Made by a program: the position numbers and the translations under genes. Under the pieces are notes generated by a model, which saw only the letters and a program-made list of their open reading frames with translations, ran no database searches and was not told the origin of the DNA. A stretch of DNA of 51,330 bases from contig CAIVQX010000103.1 of the NCBI GenBank assembly GCA_903908165.1, forward strand, positions 1-51,330, given 5' to 3'. The first letter of the stretch is position 1, and each line of letters opens with the position of its first letter. Of this stretch, positions 17,701-42,992 are shown in pieces. The stretch comes from an uncultured Methylococcaceae bacterium. GTDB taxonomy: Bacteria; Pseudomonadota; Gammaproteobacteria; Methylococcales; Methylomonadaceae.

Positions 17701-20700
17701 TACGTTCCTTATCGTATTCAGAATATTTGTCATCACGATATTCTTTACGACGCGCCACCTCATCTTGGTAGGCAATTTGAACTTCTGCCGCGTAAGGTGA
17801 CACATCTTTAAACTTAGGTGTTTCTGATTTGAAATCCCATACTGTAAATTTATCGAGATATTCTGCCGCTTTGATTTTGTCAAGTTCAGCAATTAACTCT
17901 CTGTTTTTTCTATTAAACCAGAAAGTAAATCCAAGATTATGATGGGTCAATGCGCGTAACTGATTGAGCGCATTGGTCACATCGCCTTGTTCATTTTGCA
18001 TTAAATATTGAGATTCATCAGTAACAATCAAATCCCAGTTACGGTCTACTAGCGAATCATTGTCGCCAAAGTTTGCATAAGTTGTACCGACAACACCTTT
18101 GCCGGCATCCGTTTTATCTTTGAGGAGAGTAATATCAATCTTAAAGAATTTCTTAGCCGCTTTAATCCAAGAGTCTAAAATGTTTTGCGATGGCGCGACG
18201 ACAATGATGTTGTCTTTACCTTGATCCACAAAGCGACGCATGACACCAAGACCGGTAAATGTTTTACCTGTTCCTGTGCCATTGGTGAATAACACACCTT
18301 TTTCATCTTTAAATCGTTTCTCTGCAAACGCAATATCATTAGCCTGCCCATCATCTAAGAAAGGCATTTCTGTTTTGATATTGCTGACATCTGCTGTTTT
18401 GATTTCTACAGGTTGGGGTGTAGACCCTTTAATTGCTTTTGAAGGAAGTTGCGTAATTGGATTACTTCCTGCTCGTCTAACATCCATTCCTTTGAGGCTA
18501 TCATCAAGAGTTCGTCCGCTGTCAATATTTCCAGTAGCGCTGACCGTAGTTCCTCTTGCTTCGTTTCCAGTATATAGTTCGTTATCGCTTTGTTCTCCAC
18601 CAGTAAGGGCAGTAGATATTGAATCGCTACTGTCACTGTTGGCAATATTCCCTCTGCTACCCACTGGCTCGCTTGTTTGTCCAAATATGCGAGCATCGGT
18701 GTCTGCTTCATCATAAATAGGTTGTTCATCTCTTTCGTCAATAGTGTTTGCGTTTGAGATATATCGTTCCACACGCTTGTTGGTACTTGGTACATTTTCA
18801 GTTTCCTGTGTAGGTTGTTTTGTAATCGCTTCAATGTCAGCTTTATCAATAGTGGTAACGTCATCCATACCCTCAAAATTAGATGCGCGTGGATCAAACT
18901 TAACAGCAAGATACCAAGATTTTAGATAAGGCTTAACGGCTGTTCCTAAGTCTTCGATCATTGCGTTAGCATAAGCCGCAAAAGTTCTTGCACCTTTTTC
19001 AATGTGATAACCGGCTAAGGTAATACCTGCTTGCATTAACTCTGGATCAAGACCGCTATTTAATTGTCCTAGCTTGCTTTTTAAGATAGCCCGAGCCTTT
19101 TCAGCCGCATCATCTGTAAAGACAGTGTTACCGCTTGGTTTAACCTTTGCCGCTAATTCTTCGGTAGTTTTAAATTCATCTCTACGCGCTTCACCGATTT
19201 GCTCTTTTACTTTAATGCTATTGTCAGTATATGAACGGATACCTTGTTCATTTTCAAAGATGATATTTCCACGTTGGTTTTTGCCAATACGTTTTCTTGA
19301 TTCGCCCTTAGGTTGGTTATACTGATCGGAAAATGCTTTAGCTTCCTCTAAGTCATTGAATTCATAGATACTTCCCTTTCCAATTTTAGGCACAAAGCGA
19401 TATTTGTTTTCTCTAATGAATTTACCATTTTCATCAAACGATGCTTTAGCTTCATCAAGTAAGTATTTGTCAAACATTCCACCGATTTCAGCATTTGTTA
19501 CATCTGCCATACCAGTTTTTGTTGGATTTAAATTCCTTCTTTGAATCGCTTCTTCATCATAAACTGTGCCGCCTTTACCTTCATATAAAACAGTCGTATC
19601 TTTGACCGCTTGCTCAGATTTAGATTTGCTGAATTTAATATCAGAATCGTCTTTACTATACAATTCATTATACAAATCAGTAAGATAGGCTTTTGCCTTA
19701 TCTGGATTTTCTTTTGAATAATCATTAAACTTAGAAATTAATACCCCTTTGTTTGCCGCAGGGAGATAAAGAAATTCATCAGAACCGAATACCAATTCGT
19801 TAATAGTAGCAACTTCATCTTCGGTTAAATTGCGTTCTAATTTTGGAATTTTAGCAATAGGTTCTTTTATTTTCGGTGCAAACAAGTCGCCAGATGTTGT
19901 CATACCCGTACCTTTCATCTCATCGACAACAGTATCTACCTCTTGATCACCTTTGCGTTTCTTTTCCGCTTTAAAGTCTTTCATTAACTGATCTTTTTCA
20001 GCTTGCGTTTTAGCGTCTAAGATTGCGTTAAGTTCTTCATTTGTATAGGTATTTAGAAGTTCGTCTTGTTCTTGTTGGTCTTGGTCAGCTTTGTCAGCCG
20101 CCATTTTGTCAATGGCGTTATCAATCCCTTGAGATGTATAGACTTTTTTCCCTGTGCCAAAATCAGCATCCAGTGATTCTCTAAGTTTAGCAATTAAATC
20201 GTTTTCCCCATCAACGTCATAACCCTTATCAGCTAATTGTAACGCCATTCCGTCAAAACCTTCGGAACTTGTTTTAGTAAAATACCAGCCTTTGAAATTA
20301 GAAAAACCCGCTCTATTTGCCATCTCACGATTGATGCCGCCAAGTTTACCGATAGCAGTTTCAATAGGTTCTAACCCAGTTATTGCTCTTAGGTTATTGG
20401 TAGCAGGTTTCTTTTTAGCAACAGGTTGCGCAATAGGTTGTTCTGCTACAGGTTGAATAGTTGATTGTTCTTGGCGTTTTTTATTTTTAAACGCTTCATC
20501 AACAATGAGGCTATCCTCAAAGTCTGTTATTTTTTTATACGCTACTTCTTTTTCAGAATTGGTTGTAGCTTCATTATAAGCCTTGTAAATTTCCTTTTTA
20601 TATTCATCCCCATAATTATTTATAAACCATTGATTTCCAATATCTTTTAGTTCTTTATTTAAAATAGGTAGTTCTAAATTGGCGCGTTTATCATTGGGAT

Positions 20701-23700
20701 TTAAAGCACTTCTTTTTTCATAATTTGCAATGTCCTTTTTTATTCGAGAAATTCTATCCTCAAAGTATTCATTTGATCGTTTATTGTAAACCACCTCTTG
20801 TTTAGGTAGAGCTTGTGCTTTTACTTTTTCAACGTCAGTAAATTTAATATTTTGATATTTACTTTCTAATGCGTCTGCAATATCGGCTTTCTTTTTGCTG
20901 TCATCTGGATTAGTAGCGCGAGTTGATGCGTCGCGCAATGCTTCTACTTTACTCGGAGTTTGATTAAAAGGCGCTGTAAAATCACTTTCAGCAATCGCAT
21001 TAATTACCTTTGGGTATAAGTCTGGATGCGTTTTTGCTGTGACGTGTGGAAGTAAATAGCCTGCAAATCGTTTAATGTTTAACTTATCAACATCTTGATT
21101 TCCAGCTTGAACGCTTTTTACAACATCACTGGCTTGATTAAGCTCGGCAACTTTGTTTTGCGATCCAGTAATACTTTGCTCACGCCATTTTAAAATCTGC
21201 TCAATTAACTGTGGTTTGTTAATGTAGGATTTATTAACACCTAATGGTTGAGCCATCTCGCGTAATTGCTTAACGCTAAGTCCTTGTAATTCCTCAGAAG
21301 TTTTGTCTTTAAGTATTTCTCTGTTTTGCTGAATCGTTCTTACTTTGTTTAGCAAATCAGTTTTTGTACCGCTTGTTGATGCTCCAATAAAGGTAGCAAG
21401 CGTTTTCAAATCTTCATGATTGAATTGTTGCAACACGTCCGCATCTGACATTTGAGTAATATCAGTTTTCAGAATTCGATTACCTACGCGATAGGGTTTC
21501 GGATGAGATGCTTTATATTCATCCAATGTCATATTCTGATAGGCAGTTTTATCTGTTGGTGTTGTTGATACCGCTTCGATATTTCTTTTTTGTACTAAGT
21601 ACCCATCATTTTGCCAAGGCACGACTCTGTATTCATTTTTAGGCTCTATCTTTTCCATAGATTTTGCCATTTGATTTGCATCGCTTAGAGAATTAGTTGG
21701 AAAATGGAATACCCATTTTCCCGCAGCATAGGCTTCATCTTCTTTTTTATTAGCTGATTCTCTTTGTAATTTATTCAGTGTGTCTTTTATAGCAATCTCA
21801 GCTTTGCGAGTCCCTTCAAAGTGACGCTCATTATCTGACGTTTCTTCAGCATAAATTGATTGTGCTTCTTTTGGCGTAGTAGCTTCTTTAATTCGCGTAA
21901 CACGATCAGCATTTCTTGTTTCATAATCTGCTGTTGGTGTTTCTGCTCTTTCAACTTTTCCAAATCCACTAAACTTTCGTTCATTTGTTTCTGAGTCATA
22001 GTATGGTTGAGGATTAATAAGCGAATTGATACTATGGATATCTAAACTATCTCGTTTACCGCCTTCTTCAGATGGAGGCACTACAACTGCTGTAACTTCT
22101 CCATTTTTGCTTCGTATAACTGATTCAATTGGAAACCTATCACCTGTATCGGTAACAATCACATCACCATCTTTAAAACTATTCATTAGTTCTTGAATTT
22201 GGTCTTTTGTCTGAACCTCTGTTATTAGGGTTTCTGCTGTTGGCATTTCTGCTACAGGTGTTTCTGCTACAGGTGTTTCTGGCGCTTGTTCAATTGGCGT
22301 AATGAGATTATTGTAATGATCCCTTTGCGCTTTGTTGAGCGAATACTTCTCACCTGTTGGCAAATACAACATTGAGCCTTTTAGTTCTGCACCACCTTGC
22401 GCAACGGCTTGACCAATGAAGTCTAAACTTTCTTGTGTTGCGTCTAGTTTATCTGACTTGGCTTTTACAGGTTCTTCAACTATAGGTTCAACTACAGGTG
22501 TTGCGGCTTGGATGTTTGCTTGTGTTTGCGCTTCTGTGTGGACAATATCATGTCCTGTTGTATTGGCTTCTACAATATCAGTAAACGCTTGCACTGCTTC
22601 GTCAGCAGTCGTAGTGTTACCAATATCCTCGCCTATCTTTTGGTTATCAACTATAGGTGCATTGACATCCGATACATTAGATTTAGCATTTAAGTTTTCA
22701 TCCGTGAATATGTTTTCGTATTCCTGTAAAGTGCTAGTAGTTTGATCGCTTGTAGGTGTTGTCTGCCCTGTTGTTGCTTGAGTAGTATCAATAGGCGCTT
22801 GCTGAGGTTTACCGCCATTGGCTGCGAAATAAGCATTGCGCTCATCTTCAGTCATGTTCTTAGCATCTTCTGCTCGTTTTTGGCGTAACAGTTCATCACC
22901 TGTTATCGTTTGTGCTGATTCCCCTATTGTACTGGTAAGCGCATGACCTCCGCCCATAGCCATGCCGGTTATCATACCTGTGGCGGCTGCGTTGGGCACA
23001 CCTTCAAATAGGCTTGGTTTATCTAGCGCATAGTTTTCGATAACTTTTTCAGCAGCAGACTGAGTGAGTTCCTCCCCGCCTTCAATACCCATTGAGCCTA
23101 ATATCTGTTTCGCCATATCACGAATAGACATTTCAGCAGATCGCGCACCGGCTCTTAATGTATCAATATCGCTAATACCTAATTTCTTAGCCGCTACGCT
23201 ACCGATACCAGCTAAGAACGCATCAGCCGCTCCTGCACCTAATGCTAACGCTGATTGTTCTGGCGTGGTCAATCTATCTGGTGTTTGCTGACGGATACCT
23301 TCTTCAGCTTGTCCCGACCCGACAATAAACTCCCCTGCTCCTGCACCAAGCATTCCGCTGGCTTTACCTAACGCTTTAATACCTTGTACTGCGCCACCAA
23401 TGCGACCACCGACATAAGATGCAGGTAATGATTCAAGTGCAGCATTGACTGTTGACGATGGATTAGTCAACATTGATTCAACTGTTCCACCAAATGTAGG
23501 ATTAGATTCACGTTCTTTTGCCGCAGCTCTTTCTTCTGACGATTGCTGCGAGGTTAAATATTCCCTAGCTGTTTGATAATTAACACCTTTATCTTCTAAG
23601 TATTTACCAACCTGCCCATTACTTGCCATATCAGCAATACCTGTAATGAATTCGGGAACACTTAATAAACCTTTGCTTACCGCAAGCGATCTGTCATAAG

Positions 23701-24010
23701 CCGTTTTACGAACAGACTCAATAGGTGAATCTATAAATGCTTGCGCAGTTTCCTTAGCAGACTGATAGGCTTTATCAGTAAATGATATATCGCCCTGCTC
23801 TGCTACAGGTTGCTCTAGCGTTTGTGCTACGGGAGTTTCTACAGGTTGCTCGGCTACCTTTTCTTTCTCAGCATCCGTTGTTATTGGGAAATCCTGTAAG
23901 GTATCCCAGTTTGCTATTAGATAGTCTAATGCTTCTTCTTGCGTTGCGCCTTCTGATCCACTGACTGTATATTTCTTTCCATTGGGTGCTTTAAAAGTAA
24001 AAATAGCCAT
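11720..24010 (-). CDS. Giant polyvalent virion protein (helicase, methyltransferase, peptidase-like, LPD38-like)
   Basis: 4096 residues, 24% of the window. Visible modules, approximate residues: short N-terminal domain (FKAPNGKKYTVSGSEGAT, 1-40); Gly/Ala-rich hydrophobic region (180-370); two SAP-like helices (860-940); a conserved polyvalent segment (KARAILKSKLGQLNSG ... HIEKGARTFAAYA, ~1630-1700); SF2 helicase with Walker A GTGTGKT (~1910), DESQ (~1997), SATPF (~2121) and QQEGRIFRVGQ (~2410); adenine methyltransferase with EPSAGHG (~2549) and NPPF (~2611); HEILHH zinc-peptidase-like motif (~3000); and an LPD38-like C-terminus with hydrophobic segments (~3550-4096). This matches the polyvalent/DarB-like proteins thought to be injected with DNA and to block restriction. 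It is encoded among ejection proteins, supporting packaging in the virion. Enzyme activity is inference. Confidence 0.9.
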   Translation of the reverse strand: MAIFTFKAPNGKKYTVSGSEGATQEEALDYLIANWDTLQDFPITTDAEKEKVAEQPVETPVAQTLEQPVAEQGDISFTDKAYQSAKETAQAFIDSPIESVRKTAYDRSLAVSKGLLSVPEFITGIADMASNGQVGKYLEDKGVNYQTAREYLTSQQSSEERAAAKERESNPTFGGTVESMLTNPSSTVNAALESLPASYVGGRIGGAVQGIKALGKASGMLGAGAGEFIVGSGQAEEGIRQQTPDRLTTPEQSALALGAGAADAFLAGIGSVAAKKLGISDIDTLRAGARSAEMSIRDMAKQILGSMGIEGGEELTQSAAEKVIENYALDKPSLFEGVPNAAATGMITGMAMGGGHALTSTIGESAQTITGDELLRQKRAEDAKNMTEDERNAYFAANGGKPQQAPIDTTQATTGQTTPTSDQTTSTLQEYENIFTDENLNAKSNVSDVNAPIVDNQKIGEDIGNTTTADEAVQAFTDIVEANTTGHDIVHTEAQTQANIQAATPVVEPIVEEPVKAKSDKLDATQESLDFIGQAVAQGGAELKGSMLYLPTGEKYSLNKAQRDHYNNLITPIEQAPETPVAETPVAEMPTAETLITEVQTKDQIQELMNSFKDGDVIVTDTGDRFPIESVIRSKNGEVTAVVVPPSEEGGKRDSLDIHSINSLINPQPYYDSETNERKFSGFGKVERAETPTADYETRNADRVTRIKEATTPKEAQSIYAEETSDNERHFEGTRKAEIAIKDTLNKLQRESANKKEDEAYAAGKWVFHFPTNSLSDANQMAKSMEKIEPKNEYRVVPWQNDGYLVQKRNIEAVSTTPTDKTAYQNMTLDEYKASHPKPYRVGNRILKTDITQMSDADVLQQFNHEDLKTLATFIGASTSGTKTDLLNKVRTIQQNREILKDKTSEELQGLSVKQLREMAQPLGVNKSYINKPQLIEQILKWREQSITGSQNKVAELNQASDVVKSVQAGNQDVDKLNIKRFAGYLLPHVTAKTHPDLYPKVINAIAESDFTAPFNQTPSKVEALRDASTRATNPDDSKKKADIADALESKYQNIKFTDVEKVKAQALPKQEVVYNKRSNEYFEDRISRIKKDIANYEKRSALNPNDKRANLELPILNKELKDIGNQWFINNYGDEYKKEIYKAYNEATTNSEKEVAYKKITDFEDSLIVDEAFKNKKRQEQSTIQPVAEQPIAQPVAKKKPATNNLRAITGLEPIETAIGKLGGINREMANRAGFSNFKGWYFTKTSSEGFDGMALQLADKGYDVDGENDLIAKLRESLDADFGTGKKVYTSQGIDNAIDKMAADKADQDQQEQDELLNTYTNEELNAILDAKTQAEKDQLMKDFKAEKKRKGDQEVDTVVDEMKGTGMTTSGDLFAPKIKEPIAKIPKLERNLTEDEVATINELVFGSDEFLYLPAANKGVLISKFNDYSKENPDKAKAYLTDLYNELYSKDDSDIKFSKSKSEQAVKDTTVLYEGKGGTVYDEEAIQRRNLNPTKTGMADVTNAEIGGMFDKYLLDEAKASFDENGKFIRENKYRFVPKIGKGSIYEFNDLEEAKAFSDQYNQPKGESRKRIGKNQRGNIIFENEQGIRSYTDNSIKVKEQIGEARRDEFKTTEELAAKVKPSGNTVFTDDAAEKARAILKSKLGQLNSGLDPELMQAGITLAGYHIEKGARTFAAYANAMIEDLGTAVKPYLKSWYLAVKFDPRASNFEGMDDVTTIDKADIEAITKQPTQETENVPSTNKRVERYISNANTIDERDEQPIYDEADTDARIFGQTSEPVGSRGNIANSDSSDSISTALTGGEQSDNELYTGNEARGTTVSATGNIDSGRTLDDSLKGMDVRRAGSNPITQLPSKAIKGSTPQPVEIKTADVSNIKTEMPFLDDGQANDIAFAEKRFKDEKGVLFTNGTGTGKTFTGLGVMRRFVDQGKDNIIVVAPSQNILDSWIKAAKKFFKIDITLLKDKTDAGKGVVGTTYANFGDNDSLVDRNWDLIVTDESQYLMQNEQGDVTNALNQLRALTHHNLGFTFWFNRKNRELIAELDKIKAAEYLDKFTVWDFKSETPKFKDVSPYAAEVQIAYQDEVARRKEYRDDKYSEYDKERTKAKVEWDKMDDNTKVVLLSATPFAHESNIDYAEGYLFTYGDQEATGYNSGGAKEKYFMQHLGYRMRYNKLTQPDAKVDRSNMQRQFNETLKRSGAISARTLNVDYDYDRRFILTESAVGQRIDEALQWLADNDARDLAQILNKRFGGLERRFLLEAIKAKEVIPMIRDYLAAGKKVIVFHDYKVGGVKNPFGSQGMDYAEDAVQQQYRQFQEKFPDLTSGKALEGSMVTPIQRFQEEFGDDVMIYNGDSKTRIADVAKFNDDNSGKNLMLLQSASAKEGVSFHDTTGKHQRVLINIGLPTAPTTAIQQEGRIFRVGQKSDAIFRYVNTGTNWERWAFASTIAGRASAAENLALGEFARGLRDAFIDAFELSGSYPVGHEGEGKGGKEKDRSAAKAVTEMDKARSYYYAQQQKNARTKSAEGTDYFATPEPVGLVMTRLADAKEGEKMLEPSAGHGAIARWFRPDAERTAIEPSSELNSRLALVFQDGDIKRQNFEELNIINKYDAIVMNPPFGTAGKTAIDHVAKAFGHLREGGRIVALIPEGQAIKRLEQFLYGKDAKDKMLNPDAHLIMSINLPDVTFKRAGTGVRTRIVVIEKSSTGNVPQSRNLDLSDIDNIEDLFTRMDAIEVMPRMTTNEQPFGADVETTLNEQGKKGKAPKVTRDTSVTDPDAVVNYTTSKGKELKGKLRSDLTKDQAKEIDKFTWLYTNPTNGEKGFFIREEHWNKLPPVAGKENVLESLSIKPKENVLENLTRYPSIYEKEVTEEVRVNARQRLIKLEKQLEDGKITPEGYRLGVQNVIDTMEAARAKQQSKVVTSANRRRGADWIVSQMRRGVADKYFEKSEADFAQWLLDQNPHLADNLGFSVTAKEGAGTGGTYNPLSQVIQLFVNNSNAGTAVHEILHHTERMMPEDVREGILKAWEKALASEFKNSQDANFVRALNNMLVASMGSPDAKRTMMADFKDGTLSVEKHYQLYSPSEFWAVNGTRILEQRFAAKDSWVKRAMQWMKEFTQKIKDLLGLKSDNAVLKAFESVSKGDGKFVSEGMIQDIAGIPTGGLLADIERNPDGTFNIPAESSFQFLRKWIQDDLLRIRVVMDRVREQGGKVDESNDVVLAMEAAGNIAANQLEKLKERYIQPLIDRMAKMNVNKDEIGLLLYAKHAPERNAYIQSINPKFRKLGEGGSGMTDEQSAAIIQRYKDTMGDKYAEFEKLTDDWQNIQTIVKNILVASGDISPEQAQSWEDGFDYHVPLKGFEEVDEVTGKAKKSSRGNIGQGFSISGKFDRRALGRQSRANQIVENIVMNLERAVIRSSKMYVQSTLYKLVEDNPDINLWENEVTPMKPIMGKAKAQYVMYFHGSEIGVRDTLRDARRYVEAETARTGQEKREYEIVKVGGEPQVTLMRKPYDQNEEISYWRNGKQVRIVVNDEAFVQAFNRLGDENIYGVFKPMMAFNRFLRHAYTIWNPVFIINNGIWVDPMVAFYTNTARYGLKYASTVLGKTPVSALRIAKYMAKGSSGNAEWDNTIRLYLDNGGKSGTAFITTIEKKADELNLAVLKSKMIDTKFHEYPLDKLKLTVVDNKFAKLLTYLGDVSETATRLSTFKVALDNGKSPQEAAKIARNVTINFNRNGVLGRELGATYLFINAAIQGTENLIDATVQGEHKVQATAVLSSYVMLGYLLTLLGGDDGDDELIPEEEKTRYVGITLDEKTGLRVNLKLAYGLSFAKDFGASIARLQLGGDPEKVINKLISSFFANFSYFNPMVSGQWDNQDLAASFIPTIAKPFYAITYNRNQWGKPIYPEDTYKTTVPDSEKEWATTRGSMYSDFAKWMNKVTGGTKVESGLIDVSPETMKYLTNTLGGSAATQLYKFINSIYTSSINKDEAKATTLPIISSFVKENTIDNYRRVYNSQRKEAKDIYDKFKKYEKLDDEAATDKFVTRHQTILDFYDETKSIIKEVEDLRDKQDEARIEGDKQLLKELENDEKELLIEYNYQYNRR

Positions 24011-36543: not shown

Positions 36544-36549
36544 ATACTC

Positions 36550-36985
36550 TGTGTCCTCAGTGTAAAAGACGGTTGGTTTAATACCGTAAAAATTAAATGA
36601 CAGCTTGGAAAGACAAGCACTATCAATAAAAGCATTGCTCGCTCTCACCGCAAATGAGAACCTTGTGACCCTTAATGTAGAGTAATACGGTATAGCTACC
36701 CGTACTATGGGGTAAGAATTAGTGGTGACGCTAATTTGTCACTACGATAGGGAAGTATCGAAACTGACTCGTAGGATATAGTAAACAGTGCTTTTATTGA
36801 TAGTCTGGTAAACTATTGATGTGACATAAAATACTCTCCTTTATTAATCGCGTTAGGCGGAAAGCAGTCAATTACCTAGCGCGATGCTAATGGGTTTTAA
36901 TAAGTATCCGTATTTATTAAAACCTCAAGCTCCACCTAAAGACCTCACCGACAATTTGTTACTCCAGATTGTCGGTTTTTTTATA
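36550..36985 (+). ncRNA. Long structured RNA ending in a terminator, before the DNA polymerase
   Basis: A gene-free ~430-base stretch. A 16-bp perfect helix, 36619-36634 with 36789-36804, closes a ~154-nt domain. Inside are TCTCA/TGAGA (36643/36655), TACGGTA/TACCCGTA (36686/36697, one bulge), an 8-bp stem 36722-36729/36738-36745 and GATA/TATC (36746/36756). A small hairpin GCTTG/CAAGC precedes the domain. After it come 11-bp stems 36847-36857/36875-36885 and 36893-36903/36914-36924, then the terminator at 36947-36982. AAATACTCT occurs on both sides (36542, 36830). No match to a known RNA class is recognised by eye. Confidence 0.75.
36947..36982 (+). terminator. Terminator 23 bases before the polymerase start
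   Basis: ACCGACAAT (36947-36955) pairs with ATTGTCGGT (36968-36976) and runs into seven T. It ends the structured RNA and sits directly in front of the DNA polymerase ribosome site, so it may act as an attenuator. Confidence 0.9.
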
Positions 36986-37005
36986 TTCACAAATAGGATA
37001 CCCCT

Positions 37006-38799
37006 ATGAATACTTATATTATTGACACCGAGTGTTACAAAAACTATTGGCTATTTTTAGCCGTCAACCACAAGACCGGATCAAAACTTGAAATAGAATT
37101 GTTTGGCGAAGATGCAAAACTCTCCGAGGAACAAGCTAAAAAGATTGAGCGTCTACTTCTAAATCACGAAACCATATCATTCAATGGCTTGAACTACGAT
37201 ATCCCAATGATATGCGCTGCGATGGATGTCTGGAACTGCAAAAAACTTCACAAACTTTCCACTAAAATTATCACTTCACAGAAAGTCACTTGGCAGATAC
37301 TGCGTGAACATAAACTCAACGTGCCTGCTTACAAGTATCACATTGATATTATTGAACTTCCTATTGGTCAAGCGTCACTCAAAATCTACGGTGGGCGAAT
37401 TCACACCAAGAAAATGCAAGATTTGCCAATTGATCCCAATGCGCTGATACAGGATACTGAGCGTAGCCTTATGCGCAAGTATTGCAGAAACGATACACAA
37501 GTCACAGGTGAACTCTTTGATGCGCTGAGAGGGCAAATAGACTTGCGCAAAGAGATGACAACGCAATACGGCATCAACCTCAATTCCAAGTCCGATGCAC
37601 AGATTGCTGAAGCGATTATCAAATCGGAATTGTACGAGCAAACGGGTGAGCATTACCGTCCCAAGCAGTACGATGCGAATTACACATTCAGCTATCGCAA
37701 TCCAGAGATTATTCAGTTCAAAACACAGGTACTCTGCGATATCTTTGACCAACTACTTTATGAAACCTTCACGCTCAAAGATAACGGCAGTGTTGAACTC
37801 CCCCAATGGTTAGTTGCGCCTATTACTATTGGTAAAGGTTCTTATCAAATGGGTATTGGTGGATTGCATTCACGCGAAACCGCGCAACACATCGAGGCAG
37901 CAGGTGACTTTTACTTATCTGATTTTGACGTGGCGAGTTATTACCCAAGCATTATTCTGCATCAAAGGTTATTCCCCGAAACGATGGGTGAACCGTTCCT
38001 TAATCTTTACCGAGAGATTGTAAAGAAACGCATCACAGCAAAACACACTAAAGATAAAGTCACTGCCGATACCCTAAAAATCGTACTTAACGGATCATTT
38101 GGTAAATTTGGTAGCAAATACAGTAGCTTATACTCACCGCAACTGCTCCTGCAAACCACAATCACTGGTCAACTCTCATTATTGATGTTAATCGAAGAAC
38201 TTGAACTCAATGGCATACAGGTAGTAAGTGCAAACACTGATGGTATTGTGACGCATTATCACGAAAGCCAAATACCAGCGCTCCAAGATATTCTATTTAA
38301 TTGGGAGATCACGACTAGCTATACACTTGAGCAGACAGATTATCGCGAGATTGCCTCACGAGATGTGAATAACTACATTGCTGTGAAACTCGACGGTAAA
38401 ACTAAATGTAAAGGCTGTTTTGGTGAAGCGTCACTGAGTAAAAACCCAGATGGCTTGATTATCTATGAAGCAGTCGCGCAATTCATTGCTAACGGTACAC
38501 CGATTGAAAAGACAGTTACTGATTGTGATGACATTAGAAAGTTTGTCACCGTCCGCAGAGTAACAGGTGGCGCATTGTTCCAAGGGGATTATCTTGGTAA
38601 AGCAGTCCGCTTTTATCACAGTAACAGTTCAAGTCTTGCTGATATGTCACTTGTCTATGCAAAGAACGGGAACAAAGTCCCAATGTCACAAGGGTGTCGT
38701 CCGTTGATGAATCTGCCGGATAGCTTCCCCGATGATGTTGATTTTTATTATTACTACACCAAAGCAAAAGAAGTGCTAAAAGGTGTTGGTTATATTTAG
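37006..38799 (+). CDS. Family B DNA polymerase
   Basis: 597 residues. The 3'-5' exonuclease motifs are DTE (D7/E9), FNGLNYD (~60-66) and YCRNDTQ (~159). Polymerase motif A is DFDVASYYPSIIL (~306-318), motif B KIVLNGSFGKFG (~358-369) and motif C NTDG (~410-413). Length is short for the family, and no protein-priming insertion is obvious. It replicates the phage genome with the primase-helicase and DUF2815 protein. The ribosome site AGGAT follows a terminator hairpin, so expression may depend on read-through. A second terminator lies right after its stop. Confidence 0.93.
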   Translation: MNTYIIDTECYKNYWLFLAVNHKTGSKLEIELFGEDAKLSEEQAKKIERLLLNHETISFNGLNYDIPMICAAMDVWNCKKLHKLSTKIITSQKVTWQILREHKLNVPAYKYHIDIIELPIGQASLKIYGGRIHTKKMQDLPIDPNALIQDTERSLMRKYCRNDTQVTGELFDALRGQIDLRKEMTTQYGINLNSKSDAQIAEAIIKSELYEQTGEHYRPKQYDANYTFSYRNPEIIQFKTQVLCDIFDQLLYETFTLKDNGSVELPQWLVAPITIGKGSYQMGIGGLHSRETAQHIEAAGDFYLSDFDVASYYPSIILHQRLFPETMGEPFLNLYREIVKKRITAKHTKDKVTADTLKIVLNGSFGKFGSKYSSLYSPQLLLQTTITGQLSLLMLIEELELNGIQVVSANTDGIVTHYHESQIPALQDILFNWEITTSYTLEQTDYREIASRDVNNYIAVKLDGKTKCKGCFGEASLSKNPDGLIIYEAVAQFIANGTPIEKTVTDCDDIRKFVTVRRVTGGALFQGDYLGKAVRFYHSNSSSLADMSLVYAKNGNKVPMSQGCRPLMNLPDSFPDDVDFYYYYTKAKEVLKGVGYI

Positions 38800-39150: not shown

Positions 39151-40471
39151 AGATGAACTGCGTCACTACCAAGTGCGCACATCGCAGTTTCAAATAGAGC
39201 AGGAGCGAACATTCTGCGCTCTTAAAATGGGGATGGGTAAAACAGCGTCTACGCTTACTACAATACGCGATCTACTTGATGCCTGTGTGATTAGCAAAGC
39301 ACTGGTTATCGCACCACTACGAGTCGCTAATAGCGTCTGGGCGCAAGAAGCAAAGGAATGGGAACATCTCAAAGATTTGAAATTTAAAATCTGCACAGGC
39401 ACAGAATCTAAAAGGTTATCTGCTTTGCACCATGACGCGGATGTGTATGTTATTAATAGAGAAAATGTCGTATGGCTTGTTAATCATTATAAAGACAAAT
39501 TTCCTTTTGATATGGTGGTTATAGATGAGAGCAGCTCGTTCAAATCCCCCACAAGTAAAAGAGTTAAAGCACTGCGCAAAGCACTTCCCTACATTCACTA
39601 TATTACCCTACTTACAGGTACACCCTCCCCTAATGGGTTACTTGACCTATGGGCGCAATGCTATCTGGTAGATTACGGTAAAGCACTTGGGCGAACAATG
39701 AGCGCCTACAAACAGCGATTCTTTGAACAGGATTACAGCGGATACAAGTATATTCCGCGATCCGATTCCCAAAGTAAAATTGAAACGCTGATATCACCCT
39801 TTACTATTTCGATGGAAACCAGTGATTACTTGGAGATGCCCGATTACATTGACCTTTATCAAGAATTGGATTTAGACAAGGAAGTTATTGAAAAATATAA
39901 ACTATTTGAAAAAAATCTTTATATTGAGTTTGAAAACAGTGAAGTAGAAGCTATGAGCGCTGCGTCACTTGCCAATAAACTCCTGCAATACTGCTCTGGC
40001 GCTGTGTACATCGATGAATTTAAAAACTATGAAGTAGTACACGATGCCAAGTTAGATGCACTGGAGGACATTATTGAGCAGAATGACGGGGAGAATATCC
40101 TTGTTGCCTATAACTTTAAAAGCGACTTGGAAAGATTGCTTAAACGCTTTCCAAGTGCGCGTGTACTCGATAAACATCAAAGCACAATTGACGATTGGAA
40201 TGACGGTAATATCCCTTTACTTTTTGCCCATCCCCAGTCGGCAGGTCATGGGTTAAACATTCAGCATGGTGGCTCAATGATTGTGTGGTTCTCACTGAGC
40301 TGGAGTCTTGAATATTACCAGCAATTCAATGCTCGATTGTTTCGGCAAGGACAGACGATGGCTGTGCGGATTATTCACCTAGTCTGCAAAGGTTGCATTG
40401 ATGAGCGAATTATTAACGTATTGAAATTAAAAGACATTGTTCAATCTGACTTACTTCGTGCGTTAAAATAG
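39140..40471 (+). CDS. SNF2-type DEAD-like helicase
   Basis: 443 residues from ATG 39140 (GGAAGG upstream). Walker A-like KMGMGKT (29-35), KALVIAPLRVANSVWAQEA, DESSSF (~130), LLTGTPSPNGLLDLW, and the second lobe with SAGHGLNIQHGG and QQFNARLFRQGQ. This is the compact phage SNF2/SF2 helicase that travels with VRR-NUC. Likely an ATP-driven DNA translocase in replication or recombination; the unwinding polarity cannot be read from sequence. Confidence 0.9.
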   Translation: MRTRDELRHYQVRTSQFQIEQERTFCALKMGMGKTASTLTTIRDLLDACVISKALVIAPLRVANSVWAQEAKEWEHLKDLKFKICTGTESKRLSALHHDADVYVINRENVVWLVNHYKDKFPFDMVVIDESSSFKSPTSKRVKALRKALPYIHYITLLTGTPSPNGLLDLWAQCYLVDYGKALGRTMSAYKQRFFEQDYSGYKYIPRSDSQSKIETLISPFTISMETSDYLEMPDYIDLYQELDLDKEVIEKYKLFEKNLYIEFENSEVEAMSAASLANKLLQYCSGAVYIDEFKNYEVVHDAKLDALEDIIEQNDGENILVAYNFKSDLERLLKRFPSARVLDKHQSTIDDWNDGNIPLLFAHPQSAGHGLNIQHGGSMIVWFSLSWSLEYYQQFNARLFRQGQTMAVRIIHLVCKGCIDERIINVLKLKDIVQSDLLRALK

Positions 40472-40488
40472 TTAAGTTAAGGTTGACT
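40470..40488. promoter_or_regulatory. Operator 3, before the small-gene/nucleotide operon
   Basis: AGTTAAGTTAAGGTTGACT, differing from operator 1 at one position. It covers the -35 of the promoter at 40483. Confidence 0.65.
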
Positions 40489-40510
40489 GAGCAAATAAAA
40501 TAAGTACAAT
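40483..40510 (+). promoter_or_regulatory. Promoter of the small-gene/nucleotide operon
   Basis: TTGACT (40483-40488), 16-bp spacer, TACAAT (40505-40510). The predicted start, about 40517, coincides with the first base pairs of a leader hairpin. Confidence 0.75.
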
Positions 40511-40515
40511 AAACA

Positions 40516-40571
40516 CGACTCAAAGAAAAAGCCTACCGCCAAAAAGTAACACTAGACGGTAGGTAGAGTCG
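40516..40571 (+). other. 5'-end leader hairpin
   Basis: CGACTC (40516-40521) pairs with GAGTCG (40566-40571), and CCTACCG (40532-40538) pairs with CGGTAGG (40557-40563). The transcript would begin in the outer stem, a form known to protect phage mRNAs from 5'-end decay. The remaining leader to 40652 has no gene. Confidence 0.7.
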
Positions 40572-40652
40572 AGGAGTCTAACACATAAACGCATTTCAAG
40601 CAGTTGGAATGAAACGCAAATTAAGTATAACACAAACAAGAGGTTATAAGAG

Positions 40653-40904
40653 ATGTCTGAAATAAAATTCGATCATGAAAAAATTATCGCTCAAATGGTA
40701 AAAAATGCTTTCAAAATAAAACATGACTTTGGTGCAGCTAGAGCAGATTTATTTTTTGAATTAATTTATGCAATTGGAGTAATGATTAAATCCCAAGAAG
40801 GCGGTTATGTGGATAGAAACGAATTTATTAAGGAGGTAAATAAAGTTTTAAACCATGTTTTAAATGATTTAGATAAGGAGTTTTCAAATGAGAGTATTTT
40901 TTGA
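40653..40904 (+). CDS. Small helical protein, paralogue 1
   Basis: 83 residues (starts MSEIKFDHEKIIAQMVKNAF). Clearly similar along its length to the gene at 41048: FDHEKII/FNHHDII, FFELIYAIGVMI/TFELVQAVGYLV, EFIKEVN/LFIKEIN. All-helical, acidic. The pair brackets an unrelated small gene. Unknown function. Confidence 0.65.
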   Translation: MSEIKFDHEKIIAQMVKNAFKIKHDFGAARADLFFELIYAIGVMIKSQEGGYVDRNEFIKEVNKVLNHVLNDLDKEFSNESIF

Positions 40905-41070
40905 AGATAACACCTCTGATGCGTATTGGTATGCTGAGGAGGAAGAAGATGAGAGAAAGTATTGGACGCACTCCCAATGGGACGCATTCAATGCACAAAG
41001 AGCTATAGATACCGAAAAGCAATTACGCAAAATGTTAGGAGATAGATATGTCGAACCAAAGAAAATTTAA
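40888..41070 (+). CDS. Small Trp/acidic protein between two paralogues
   Basis: 60 residues, starting MRVFFEDNTSDAYWYAEEEE, with Trp-rich and acidic first half and a charged helix at the end. AAGGAG upstream. Overlaps both paralogues (17 and 23 bases). Unknown function. Confidence 0.6.
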   Translation: MRVFFEDNTSDAYWYAEEEEDERKYWTHSQWDAFNAQRAIDTEKQLRKMLGDRYVEPKKI

Positions 41071-41314
41071 TCATCACGATATTATTTCAAGATTACTGAG
41101 AACTGCGCTTGAGCATGATGATCAACGAGAAGCCTTTAGTGATTTAACTTTTGAGCTTGTACAAGCCGTTGGCTATTTAGTAGGTAGCACTGAGAAACAA
41201 GAGGATAGAGAACTGTTTATCAAAGAAATAAACAGTCAAATTAGTGATTGTATTAAATTACTTGATGATGTTAGACAAGAGCTTGGTAGTAAATCAGCAA
41301 CATTGGTAGCGTAA
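41048..41314 (+). CDS. Small helical protein, paralogue 2
   Basis: 88 residues, starting MSNQRKFNHHDIISRLLRTA. Paralogue of the protein at 40653 with a different C-terminus. AGGAG-type site inside the preceding gene. Function unknown; pairing suggests a heteromer or subfunctional copies. Confidence 0.65.
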   Translation: MSNQRKFNHHDIISRLLRTALEHDDQREAFSDLTFELVQAVGYLVGSTEKQEDRELFIKEINSQISDCIKLLDDVRQELGSKSATLVA

Positions 41315-41332
41315 TAACTGAGGACACAGACA

Positions 41333-41500
41333 ATGGACGCATTAATTGAATTTTTAAAATACCTAGATGACAGCAACATTGCTTACCTTTTAATGATAGC
41401 TTTCTTTTTAGTGATAGGTGGCTTTAACAATGTTGCTCAAAAAGAAAACAAAAGGCTAAGAAAATTACTCCGTAATACAGTTAAGGAGAATGGGCGATGA
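41333..41500 (+). CDS. 55-residue single-pass membrane protein
   Basis: Starts MDALIEFLKYLDDSN, then one hydrophobic helix (AYLLMIAFFLVIGGF) and a basic tail (KENKRLRKLLRNTVK). GAGGACAC upstream; stop overlaps the next ATG (ATGA). Likely inner membrane with a cytoplasmic basic tail. Unknown role. Confidence 0.6.
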   Translation: MDALIEFLKYLDDSNIAYLLMIAFFLVIGGFNNVAQKENKRLRKLLRNTVKENGR

Positions 41501-41712
41501 CCAAATTAACTGACAAACAAAAATCTTATAAAGATTATTTAAATAGTGTACCGATATCTAAACGGACTACGCCTTATAAGTTCTACCAATATAAAGACTG
41601 TTACATTGACTTTTTTGTAAAAATTAATTTAGAGGACACATCATATGAACGAGATATTCTTAGCCACACTGACATTGACAATATCATTTCTGACATCAGA
41701 AACCACTATTGA
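41497..41712 (+). CDS. Small basic protein
   Basis: 71 residues, Lys/Tyr-rich N-terminus (MTKLTDKQKSYKDYLNSVPI), acidic end. Coupled to the previous gene by ATGA; AAGGAG lies upstream. Its last 68 bases overlap the next gene in another frame. Unknown function. Confidence 0.55.
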   Translation: MTKLTDKQKSYKDYLNSVPISKRTTPYKFYQYKDCYIDFFVKINLEDTSYERDILSHTDIDNIISDIRNHY

Positions 41713-41905
41713 TAAAAAAGGTCACACCACACAAGTAGAACGTATTGCTTACACAACAAGCGTTTTGCCTTATGAAACGATGGTGGCTTGCATGAATGCA
41801 AAAGAAGAATACAATTTTGCATTTGGTGCTTACCAAATGAGTAAACGACCAGCAAGAGTGATTACCGCTATTTGCAATGATGTTAAAACGGGGACAGTAC
41901 AATGA
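41645..41905 (+). CDS. Putative exported two-cysteine protein 1
   Basis: 86 residues. The N-terminus MNEIFLATLTLTISFLTSE looks like a short signal peptide or anchor. Two Cys (MVACMNAKEE and TAICNDVK) could form a disulphide in the periplasm. Similar in design to the protein at 44047. AGAGGACAC upstream. Possibly acts at the host envelope; no family recognised. Confidence 0.6.
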   Translation: MNEIFLATLTLTISFLTSETTIDKKGHTTQVERIAYTTSVLPYETMVACMNAKEEYNFAFGAYQMSKRPARVITAICNDVKTGTVQ

Positions 41906-42102
41906 CCGAAACAACACTTAAAGAATATAGCCAGTTGTACAAGATACCGCAAAACACATTGATGTTTCACATGGAAAGATTATGTATTGAACCGACAGGC
42001 AAAACACAACGCTCACCAAAAGGCAGAGAAAGTTTTACATGGAAAGTTAGCGATATGGACTCAGCTAGAGCAAAAGTTAAACGTAGGATGGTGCAGCTAT
42101 GA
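41902..42102 (+). CDS. Small HTH-like protein
   Basis: 66 residues: TLKEYSQLYKIPQNTLMFHM reads as a helix-turn-helix, followed by a basic region with RSPKGRESFTW and KVKRRM. Overlaps both neighbours by four bases (ATGA). Possible DNA-binding regulator; moderate support. Confidence 0.5.
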   Translation: MTETTLKEYSQLYKIPQNTLMFHMERLCIEPTGKTQRSPKGRESFTWKVSDMDSARAKVKRRMVQL

Positions 42103-42302
42103 AAGACAATTTTGAAACGGTAATGCTGGTAATATCATTTGTTGTGGGGATGTGTGGGGGAATCTTAATCGATGAACTTGTACATCGCAATGATGAAACA
42201 GTAATCAAAACAAAAATAGGTGAATTCATGATCCGCGATCAAAAGGTATATGGGATTTACGAAATTCAGCGCAATGCGCAAGGTGATATGGTGGTGAGAT
42301 GA
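42099..42302 (+). CDS. Small membrane protein
   Basis: 67 residues. Hydrophobic helix VMLVISFVVGMCGGIL near the N-terminus, then a soluble domain with IKTKIGEFMIRDQKVYGIY. Four-base overlaps on both sides. Unknown function. Confidence 0.6.
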   Translation: MKDNFETVMLVISFVVGMCGGILIDELVHRNDETVIKTKIGEFMIRDQKVYGIYEIQRNAQGDMVVR

Positions 42303-42448
42303 CAAGATTAGAATGTATGACTCGTTTAACAATGGCACAAAAGAATAAAAAAGAACTGAAGAAAATCAAACTTCAATTACTTAAAGAAATTCAACAACTT
42401 AAATTAATGCTTCGTGCATTAGAGGAAGAAGAACAATGGGTGAATTGA
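42299..42448 (+). CDS. Small basic coiled-coil protein
   Basis: 49 residues, starting MTRLECMTRLTMAQKNKK, then a Leu-rich charged helix (ELKKIKLQLLKEIQQLKL) ending in a Glu run. ATGA overlap with the previous gene. Unknown function. Confidence 0.5.
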   Translation: MTRLECMTRLTMAQKNKKELKKIKLQLLKEIQQLKLMLRALEEEEQWVN

Positions 42449-42513
42449 TATTCTTTACAGGTATTGTGGTGATGATTGTGTGCTTCTTGGTGGAGTATGC
42501 CGATGGAGATTGA
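42436..42513 (+). CDS. 25-residue membrane micro-protein 1
   Basis: MGELIFFTGIVVMIVCFLV then a short acidic tail. It overlaps the previous gene (GAGGAAGAAG ribosome site within it) and the next one. Reads as a single transmembrane helix. Translation inferred from the tightly packed gene chain. Confidence 0.45.
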   Translation: MGELIFFTGIVVMIVCFLVEYADGD

Positions 42514-42580
42514 GGATATCGCATCACTAGTATTTTTTGTTTTAGGTTTAGTTTTAACGGGCATATGGCTATGGCATTAG
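42503..42580 (+). CDS. 25-residue membrane micro-protein 2
   Basis: MEIEDIASLVFFVLGLVLTG then IWLWH: a single transmembrane helix, opposite charge pattern to its neighbour. TGGAG lies upstream, and it overlaps both flanking genes. Translation inferred from packing. Confidence 0.45.
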   Translation: MEIEDIASLVFFVLGLVLTGIWLWH

Positions 42581-42735
42581 ACAAGGTTAGACGAGTTGAA
42601 CCTGTAGCACCTGCGCCCAATGCGACCCATTGTAAACACAATCACTGGCGAATATATAACAGCCTTGGGTATCGAGAATGTGACGAGTGCAGAGAACGTA
42701 GACCAATCTTTAATGACATACGGCATCAAAGATGA
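42571..42735 (+). CDS. Small zinc-binding-like protein
   Basis: 54 residues, starting MALDKVRRVEPVAPAP. HCKHNHW followed later by CDECRERRP offers Cys/His ligands for one zinc. Coupled by overlaps to micro-protein 2 and to the next gene (ATGA). Unknown function. Confidence 0.55.
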   Translation: MALDKVRRVEPVAPAPNATHCKHNHWRIYNSLGYRECDECRERRPIFNDIRHQR

Positions 42736-42992
42736 ACATCTCACAAATCTTTATCGGCTTATCACCATTTTTAAAAGACCGATTTTCCAGTGAGGTGTTC
42801 ACACTTGGACTCATTAATGATTTGAATGAGGAGCAATTTCAAGCACGATGTAGACGTTTAATACGCCAGCACAACGGTGAAAGCAGAAAGTTATACAAAG
42901 CCTTAGCTAATTTAAATAAAGCGGAAAGAGAGCGATTCTTTGACGTTATTTCAGATGATAAAGCAGGAGTTACCAATGCCACAGAAAATTGA
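42732..42992 (+). CDS. Small helical protein
   Basis: 86 residues, starting MNISQIFIGLSPFLKDRF, basic middle (RCRRLIRQHNGESRKLY). Overlaps the TSCPD gene by 17 bases. Not recognised. Confidence 0.55.
   Translation: MNISQIFIGLSPFLKDRFSSEVFTLGLINDLNEEQFQARCRRLIRQHNGESRKLYKALANLNKAERERFFDVISDDKAGVTNATEN

Follow-up and report, generated by a model that had tools for sequence, protein, structure and literature searches.

A modular structured RNA ahead of a phage DNA polymerase gene appears to belong to an unlisted RNA class shared with P1 and E. coli prophages

The gap between the ssDNA-binding protein and DNA polymerase genes

The window, by which we mean the whole 51,330-nucleotide stretch analysed here (contig CAIVQX010000103.1 of an uncultured Methylococcaceae bacterium assembly), carries on its + strand a gene for an Enc34-type ssDNA-binding protein (PF10991; 36019..36543; 109.9 bits against a Pfam cut-off of 26) and, downstream, a DNA polymerase gene (37006..38799). 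The latter scores 19.1 bits with Pfam DNA_pol_B_2, below the cut-off of 25.8, and is 44.0-45.8% identical to five phage genes annotated as DNA polymerase among the matches listed. For the gap between them an earlier note had proposed an undescribed, terminated RNA fold of ~430 nt. The sequence, an inverted-repeat tool and the predicted fold place all the parts that it named where it had put them: the perfect 16-bp helix (36619-36634/36789-36804), which encloses 154 nt, the hairpins that follow it, and the terminator. The repeat tool lengthens the arms at 36619 and 36804 to 19 nt at 95% identity. The predicted folding energy of the 442-nt stretch is -132.2 kcal/mol (z -6.65, none of 100 shuffles being equally low), and the domain with short flanks has a fold z of -4.10 (none of 200 shuffles). 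As the opposite strand of the 442-nt stretch is nearly as stable (z -5.55), folding energy is uninformative on the strand.

A protein-coding frame was sought in the gap, where the longest overlapping ORF in the window's ORF list has only 41 aa. For 16 homologues, the longest run of a frame without a stop measures 12-40 codons when the + strand is read and 20-43 when the - strand is, apart from one - frame of 59 codons in L060. The Rfam/Infernal search that the earlier note had proposed returned no match in the whole window at the gathering score and, at a relaxed E-value, six weak matches far under it (the best at 21.1 bits, with 59 required). ARAGORN found no tRNA gene in the window, and the group I and group II intron, RNase P and tmRNA models (Rfam or ARAGORN) gave no match there, in agreement with the impression that the element resembles none of these RNAs.

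The + strand element opens with a 5′ module (36549..36587), delimited by reading relatives' sequences, that consists of the motif CTGTGTCCTCAG (36549-36560) and a small hairpin (36569-36587) with the stem ACGGT/ACCGT in the window and ACGAT/ATCGT in relatives. The leader hairpin GCUUG-GAAAGA-CAAGC (36602..36618), which has one site in the window, directly adjoins the frame helix P1, whose 5′ strand (36619..36637; helix 1 of alignment A2, described below, 99.3% paired) and 3′ strand (36786..36804) form inverted repeat I1. Inside the frame lies a UCUC/GAGA hairpin with the loop ACCGCAAAU (36643..36666; alifold helix 33-36/46-49), in which three of four pairs are invariant and the stem register slips between groups; its loop GCAA could possibly form a pseudoknot with UUGU at 36663-36666. 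It is followed by stacked helices (36668-36671/36710-36713, 36677-36680/36705-36708 and 36686-36690/36700-36704, together 36668..36713; helices 3-5 of A2, 98.4-100% paired) with a UAGCUA loop (36693-36698) that is kept in all 16 homologues. An 8-bp hairpin AAUUAGUG/CGCUAAUU (36717..36736; helix 6, both-side changes in five of eight pairs) and a helix enclosing the conserved AUAGGGMAG (36739-36747/36769-36776, spanning 36739..36776; helix 7, both-side changes in six of eight pairs) complete the domain.

The 3′ frame strand can also form an alternative hairpin, AUUGAUAGU-CUGGUAA-ACUAUUGAU (36796..36820), in which 36796-36804 and 36812-36820 make nine pairs, two of them G-U; this hairpin and the outer 9 bp of P1 are mutually exclusive. 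Beyond it lie (i) a separate hairpin module with the loop CGGAAAGCAGUCAAUUA (36847..36885; 11-bp stem 36847-36857/36875-36885, one G-U), of which there are 12 variants including the window's, with stem letters that change in pairs (by reading), (ii) an A/U-rich hairpin with 14-nt arms (36893..36924; inverted repeat I3), replaced in relatives L042 and L190 by a GUGUCC pseudoknot module (by reading), and (iii) an intrinsic terminator (36947..36983) of 12 pairs (36947-36976) followed by TTTTTTT, which together with its flank has 13 variants, the window's included. The loop CGGARAGCAGUCAAUUA of the 36847-36885 module is kept across its 12 variants, which were found with a pattern that already contained these letters.

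In relatives, the hairpins beyond 36820 and the 36549-36560 motif recur independently. The proposed ~430-nt RNA is structured, conserved and terminated, and it is not a single fold, since the gap is made of adjacent modules. As judged from this comparison, the conserved unit is the predicted 186-nt domain (36619-36804) with its leader hairpin (36602-36618), and not one 430-nt fold.

Homologues, covariation and strand

IMG/VR searches with the two flanking proteins gave 27 and 25 loci, partly on the same contigs, and a DNA pattern from the 3′ end of the domain gave 42 IMG/VR stretches. Alignment A2 holds 16 of the 36 sequences collected by a motif script, fragments, overlapping hits and truncated copies having been left out, and the consensus structure tested on it was obtained by RNAalifold from A2 itself. 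Of 846 cells in 53 pairs, which are not independent events because many of the 16 sequences are close relatives, 99.3% pair (88.2% in shuffles). Both-side changes occur in 20 of the 53 pairs (13.1 in shuffles), and the covariation score is 0.372, compared to 0.152 for shuffled alignments and 0.03-0.08 when the structure is slid. The weakest measure is the number of further pair types (44, compared to 39.6 in shuffles, 21 of 500 shuffles being as high). Covariation in the 16-bp helix, whose absence had been named as grounds against a functional RNA, was found: three of the 18 counted frame-helix pairs change on both sides and 14 are invariant, and one inner pair is C-G in ten sequences, A-U in five and unpaired in one.

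Among the A2 cells, G-U pairs (102) far exceed A-C combinations (1), and the RNA is therefore read from the + strand. A covariance model, the other check that had been proposed, scores the window at 184.3 bits on the + strand and 37.3 bits on the - strand, and in 100 loci it gives 34 matches of at least 170 bits, one being truncated where its contig stops. The probability that the fold arose by chance in non-coding DNA is negligible: we found nothing in favour of this explanation, and it is contradicted by the covariation, as well as by the z of -6.65 and the homologues in many contigs. The covariation, the strand asymmetry, the homologues and the absence from Rfam together uphold the proposal of an undescribed structured RNA ahead of the polymerase gene. 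That this RNA would be functional follows from conservation only.

The homologues of the window domain that the searches retrieved are mostly near relatives. The window gap had no blastn match in phage and plasmid records. The domain DNA was found in one of 35 genus genomes and the leader in one of 237 family genomes, in both cases the window's own genome. A leader pattern that demands GCTTG had no match in genome contigs, and missed a contig of an uncultured Methylomonas MAG because the leader of the latter is GCCG. On this contig, whose polymerase is 94% identical, the gap corresponding to the window's holds several modules, namely a tRNA-like unit with a second domain of type A (described below), a terminator, a window-type domain and a framed pseudoknot module. 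Because of this related gap, the phage host is likely to be a methanotroph.

Constant frames, inserts and second domains

Counted from where the protein match ends, the gap spans 441-1257 nt in 15 relatives with both genes (462 nt in the window), three of the 15 having instead 1617-1990 nt with an extra ORF inside. By reading, the gap contains arrays of up to three units (L041). A unit consists of a leader, GCUUG-GAAAGA-CAAGC or GCCG-GAAAGA-CGGC, and an ACUAUC...GAUAGU frame round a variable insert. A 21-mer containing the leader hairpin, AGCTTGGAAAGACAAGCACTA, occurs exactly in 90 IMG/VR stretches. With a 400-nt signature we counted 96 leader-anchored units, a number in which some contigs appear twice with different ends; 89 of them close the frame helix by our rule, and the other seven were excluded from insert clustering. 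A recount with 60 nt of upstream sequence and an 80-nt signature gave 82 distinct leader sites and 64 different closed inserts. Clustering of the 89 units by 6-mers gave 24 insert families; window-type inserts fall into two of them, which makes the true number slightly lower. The largest family, of 15 units, is joined to type A second domains in five units, to type B with three different middles in six, and to other ends in four.

The surroundings of the units vary as well. The ORF clusters on either side of 75 sites make up 48 different pairs; this number is too high, because ORFs were picked mechanically and contig ends were scored as none; the commonest pairs occur eight, six and five times. 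The neighbours include polymerase, primase-like, PhoH-like and terminase-like ORFs, assigned by reading except for the window's own genes. Comparison of the loci shows that the predicted inserts and second domains are combined in different ways and that units stand in tandem. By its sequence, 36602-36820 of the window is one unit of a modular structured RNA, with the 154-nt domain as its insert.

Several observations were made beside these arrays. In L029, L032 and L041 an ORF that is PhoH-like by eye lies between the array terminator and the polymerase gene. In many relatives (L042, L043-L053), about 740-860 bp interrupt the polymerase gene itself near aa 340, a pattern that would fit an intron, intein or homing gene. 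In L056, L064 and L085 a variant leader hairpin, CAGCACGGAAAGACGGC, stands alone shortly upstream of an ORF.

In many units the frame is followed by a second domain of type A or B. Type A second domains were aligned as A3 (31 distinct sequences, 24 pairs). RNAalifold's type A fold was replaced by one that we drew with a CUCAG/CUGAG stem, so that the structure was derived from the very sequences on which it was tested. In A3, 97.4% of cells are paired (91.0 in shuffles) and 58 cells show both-side changes (22.0 in shuffles); the number of pairs with a both-side change does not exceed that of shuffles (5 and 4.9; 435 of 500 shuffles as high), and neither does the number of further pair types (484 of 500). 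Type B consists of a hairpin with a GGCUGA loop, a variable middle that falls into 12 families, a hairpin with UCAG in its loop, and a closing helix (GATAGTT/AACTATC, and GTTGTGGTG/CACCACAAC with kin). Methylomonas-type loci supply 41, and named records 16, of the 57 distinct type B domains. The stems change in pairs (for example GCGTA/TACGC, GTGCA/TGCAC, GCATA/TATGC and GCGAA/TTCGC); among 33 first arms there is one with two mismatches and another with a single mismatch. Folded singly, five type B domains are not clearly beyond shuffles (z -0.45, -1.06, -1.48, -2.42 and -2.44), both arms being visible in only some of their minimum-energy folds. Kissing of the type B loops is only suggested, because the complementary CUGA and UCAG are invariant.

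The window unit, which we typed as "other", has no second domain of type A or B, the loop letters of both being absent from its gap; one or the other is present in the equivalent gap of relatives. We considered, and abandoned, the idea that the second domains are HDV-like or hammerhead ribozymes; these domains presumably do not fit the topology of HDV-like theta ribozymes.

A competing downstream partner of the 3′ frame strand is common to the different kinds of unit. It pairs as GAUAGUU/AACUAUC with type B and as GAUAGUA/UACUAUC with type A (last pair mismatched in three of 31), and in reduced units the 3′ frame strand pairs in a short downstream hairpin. A partner of at least six pairs lies within 22 nt in 18 of 26 window-type rows (14.5% in shuffled sequences), and within 160 nt in 58 of 62 leader units (40.8% in shuffled sequences), these rows not being independent, as the same downstream sequence is found in several and L009 appears twice in the set of 26. 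Of the eight window-type rows that have no partner within 22 nt, two have type B and six run into AATATATT, an A/T stretch with a T run seen in five.

Such exclusive partners could act as a switch in cis, through which the RNA would govern processing, the terminator ending at 36983 or how the polymerase gene is translated. The position of the unit between the ssDNA-binding protein and polymerase genes with a terminator ahead of the latter, the retention of exclusive pairing in reduced units, and the six window-type units that enter an A/T stretch, five of them with a T run, all suit this explanation. We nevertheless consider it unlikely, as units elsewhere stand beside many unrelated genes and, in other phages, after tRNA genes or in a late region, and as the inserts vary widely.

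The GUGUCC pseudoknot mentioned above occurs both as a framed insert and as an element before the polymerase gene (L069:3719-3825, L181:7522-7626 and about 2800-2920 in L190); its second stem is CUCACA/UGUGAG or CUCGCGC/GCGCGAG, with an A-rich linker. We also considered the GUGUCC motif as an anti-RBS; by reading, this suits the polymerase start in some relatives and does not suit other genes.

Some inserts resemble tRNA. A T-arm motif, defined as a 5-bp stem round TTCRANY, was found 19 times on the + strand and never on the - strand of 78 array regions (35.3 kb), compared to 17 and 2 times in the surrounding 552 kb. Two of the 19 belong to tRNA genes (L057, L096) and two (L002, L025) to a hairpin that follows the window-type domain. 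Inserts in L042 (the same contig as L003), L004, L053 (two inserts) and L135 pass the Rfam tRNA cut-off, and no other insert in the 28 loci scanned does. ARAGORN reads the L140 insert as tRNA-Leu(tag) and one insert family as having the four-base anticodon aaca with no amino acid. The window's own insert is different: there is no T-arm in 36544-37005. The arrays thus resemble phage tRNA genes and arrays in that some inserts score as tRNA and true tRNA genes lie beside some arrays, and differ from them in that the inserts are locked in a long frame helix and many are not tRNA-like.

Enterobacterial phages and possible roles

Named phages were reached only through the second domain of relatives. 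The L102 stretch with type A matches two Erwinia jumbo phages over 41 bases at 92.7%, in an unannotated place after tRNA-Asn, and, with E values up to 1 allowed, a type B unit matches 51 phage records, those listed weakly. Reading of the fetched places revealed the same build in other letters, a CACAAC/GUUGUG frame, often with a leader hairpin, in the order CACAACAGGTAAGAGCA, insert, TGCTCTTTCCGTTGTG, GTGAAT, GCGCAGGCTGATGCGC, middle, GCCGGAGATCAGCACCGGC, CACCACAAC. The frame duplex is present in 20 of 20 rows from 18 enterobacterial loci at -14.5 to -32.3 kcal/mol, energies of the best placement taken without a shuffle control; two of these rows are the same P1 unit, and L198 (no upstream frame), L191 and L196 (both type A) were left out.

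In P1, the units follow tRNA-Asn and tRNA-Thr, at a place where the reference record has plp and upl overlying on the other strand. The P1 unit matches 108 of 50,697 phage records at E 1e-3, five of them over at least 80% of its length; of the 50 phage matches listed, 23 have no feature, 14 fall on a hypothetical protein, 7 are unannotated and 6 concern tRNA-Thr or Plp. Among 5426 E. coli genomes, 1055 contain a match to all or part of the unit, which in 225 covers at least 80% of it; the matches lie at 711 places on chromosomes and 478 on plasmids. Of the 30 E. coli matches listed, 21 have no feature beneath them and 9 have the neighbouring tRNA-Thr there. In the lambdoid phages HK633 and CUS-3, units lie between pR′ or Q and the holin gene. 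Rfam found only tRNAs in 20 loci. A scan of 20 enterobacterial loci for tRNA genes found them in 8 and none in the stretches scanned of the other 12, and a search of MG1655 2,464,000-2,476,000 (prophage CPS-53) with loose motifs found no unit. Its architecture suggests that the window RNA is a member of an unlisted phage RNA class that is also represented in P1 and E. coli prophages.

Two P1 records agree fully on the sides compared and differ by one 196-nt cassette, which is the exact spacing of two 11-nt GTTGTGATGAA repeats in P1. Direct repeats flanking an exchanged cassette, together with the HNH-like ORFs (by reading) that recur beside arrays, would suit a mobile or recombining DNA cassette whose repeats serve DNA exchange, RNA folding being secondary. 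This is quite improbable given the RNA signatures, namely 102 G-U compared to 1 A-C and T-arms on one strand, and repeats need no compensatory changes within an insert. Cassette swapping as such also fits roles other than the decoy that we favour below.

We know of no precedent for unrelated phages that share an RNA frame and differ in the RNA inserts swapped into it. Tandem structured RNA repeats are known from ToxI-type RNAs, copies of which phages use for escape; the units described here are likewise tandem and structured, but longer and with variable inserts. No description of a window-type RNA was found among the papers listed by searches of the openly licensed PMC literature, subscription papers and preprints being mostly outside that scope. 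Structured phage RNAs whose role is not understood have been described before, among them GOLLD and ROOL, which the available part of PMC12286853 describes as phage-borne, non-coding and structured, often near tRNA islands, the GOLLD linker sometimes containing tRNAs. The present RNA shares the phage-borne, structured and non-coding character and the frequent vicinity of tRNA islands, but GOLLD and ROOL each form one fold of 600-800 nt, whereas here units of roughly 100-300 nt combine a shared frame with swapped inserts. The GOLLD and ROOL models had no match at the gathering score in the window or in sets of 16, 12 and 20 loci. Against all Rfam families at a relaxed E-value, the L082 unit had four matches far below gathering and the L089 unit none.

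That units assemble into a scaffold through loop-loop contacts, as GOLLD and ROOL do, is improbable in view of their small size, their very different inserts and this lack of an Rfam match. It would account for the palindromic UAGCUA loop, present on a covarying stem in all 16 homologues, which only suggests an RNA multimer, and for the complementary type B loops GGCUGA and UCAG, which are too invariant to test; GOLLD and ROOL are themselves phage RNAs near tRNA islands, as far as the accessible text of PMC12286853 goes. HDV-like theta ribozymes provide a further likeness as phage RNA elements linked to tRNAs, in the portion of PMC10879173 available. Likewise prophage-borne and tRNA-associated are the Pas sRNAs of E. 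coli lambdoid prophages, which are Hfq-bound (PasA has 84 nt) and have tRNA hits near some of their genes; no frame with inserts is described for them in the available part of PMC13192938, and they are set apart here by description, not by sequence.

We favour, tentatively and as a plausible rather than a probable reading, a unit that acts in trans as a decoy or sponge for a host RNA-binding protein or a defence RNase. We do so because of the constant frame with swapped inserts, the partial tRNA mimicry, the tRNA genes next to some arrays and the cassette exchange. The covariation of the window domain and of type A and the paired changes in type B arms count for the decoy, as do the + strand signals and the varied combinations and neighbours of the units; the window's own insert, which is not tRNA-like, and the 12 of 20 enterobacterial loci that have no tRNA gene in the stretch scanned count against it, together with the closeness of most homologues of the window domain, the eight window-type rows lacking a partner within 22 nt and the single folds of the five type B domains. 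Phage tRNAs have been proposed to counter host defences that target tRNA or RNA (PMC10264068 and PMC11455837, in the parts available).

The decoy would operate as follows. The + strand transcript of the replication operon would carry the unit and end at 36983. The constant frame, consisting of the leader hairpin, the frame helix and a 3′ strand with two competing partners, would display an exchangeable insert. By mimicking a host RNA, which in some units is a tRNA, this insert would tie up a host RNA-binding protein or defence RNase. The competing strand may switch the frame between open and closed, for example on binding or processing, and swapping of cassettes would change the target as hosts differ. 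A wider formulation, which we regard as possible yet doubtful, is a combinatorial phage RNA platform extending from methanotroph phages to P1, in which a switching frame would display interchangeable mimics against host defence or RNA-handling proteins and the mimics would be reshuffled as cassettes.

If the units are made and act in trans, they would be the phages' own RNA counterpart of exchangeable anti-host proteins. Stretches next to some phage tRNA genes that carry no RNA annotation would thereby gain a role, as would those between Q or pR′ and the holin gene in HK633 and CUS-3. As the build is present in P1, with two records one cassette apart, these ideas can be tested in standard laboratory strains.

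Three features elsewhere in the window may be recorded. The 12-mer CTGTGTCCTCAG of the 5′ module (36549-36560, + strand) occurs again inverted at 41318-41329 on the - strand; two or more copies with at most one mismatch were seen in 1 of 100 window shuffles. About 2.4 kb of the window (40471-42940) has no ORF of at least 100 aa. On the - strand, 11720-24010 is a single ORF of 4096 aa with parts that by eye are helicase- and methyltransferase-like.
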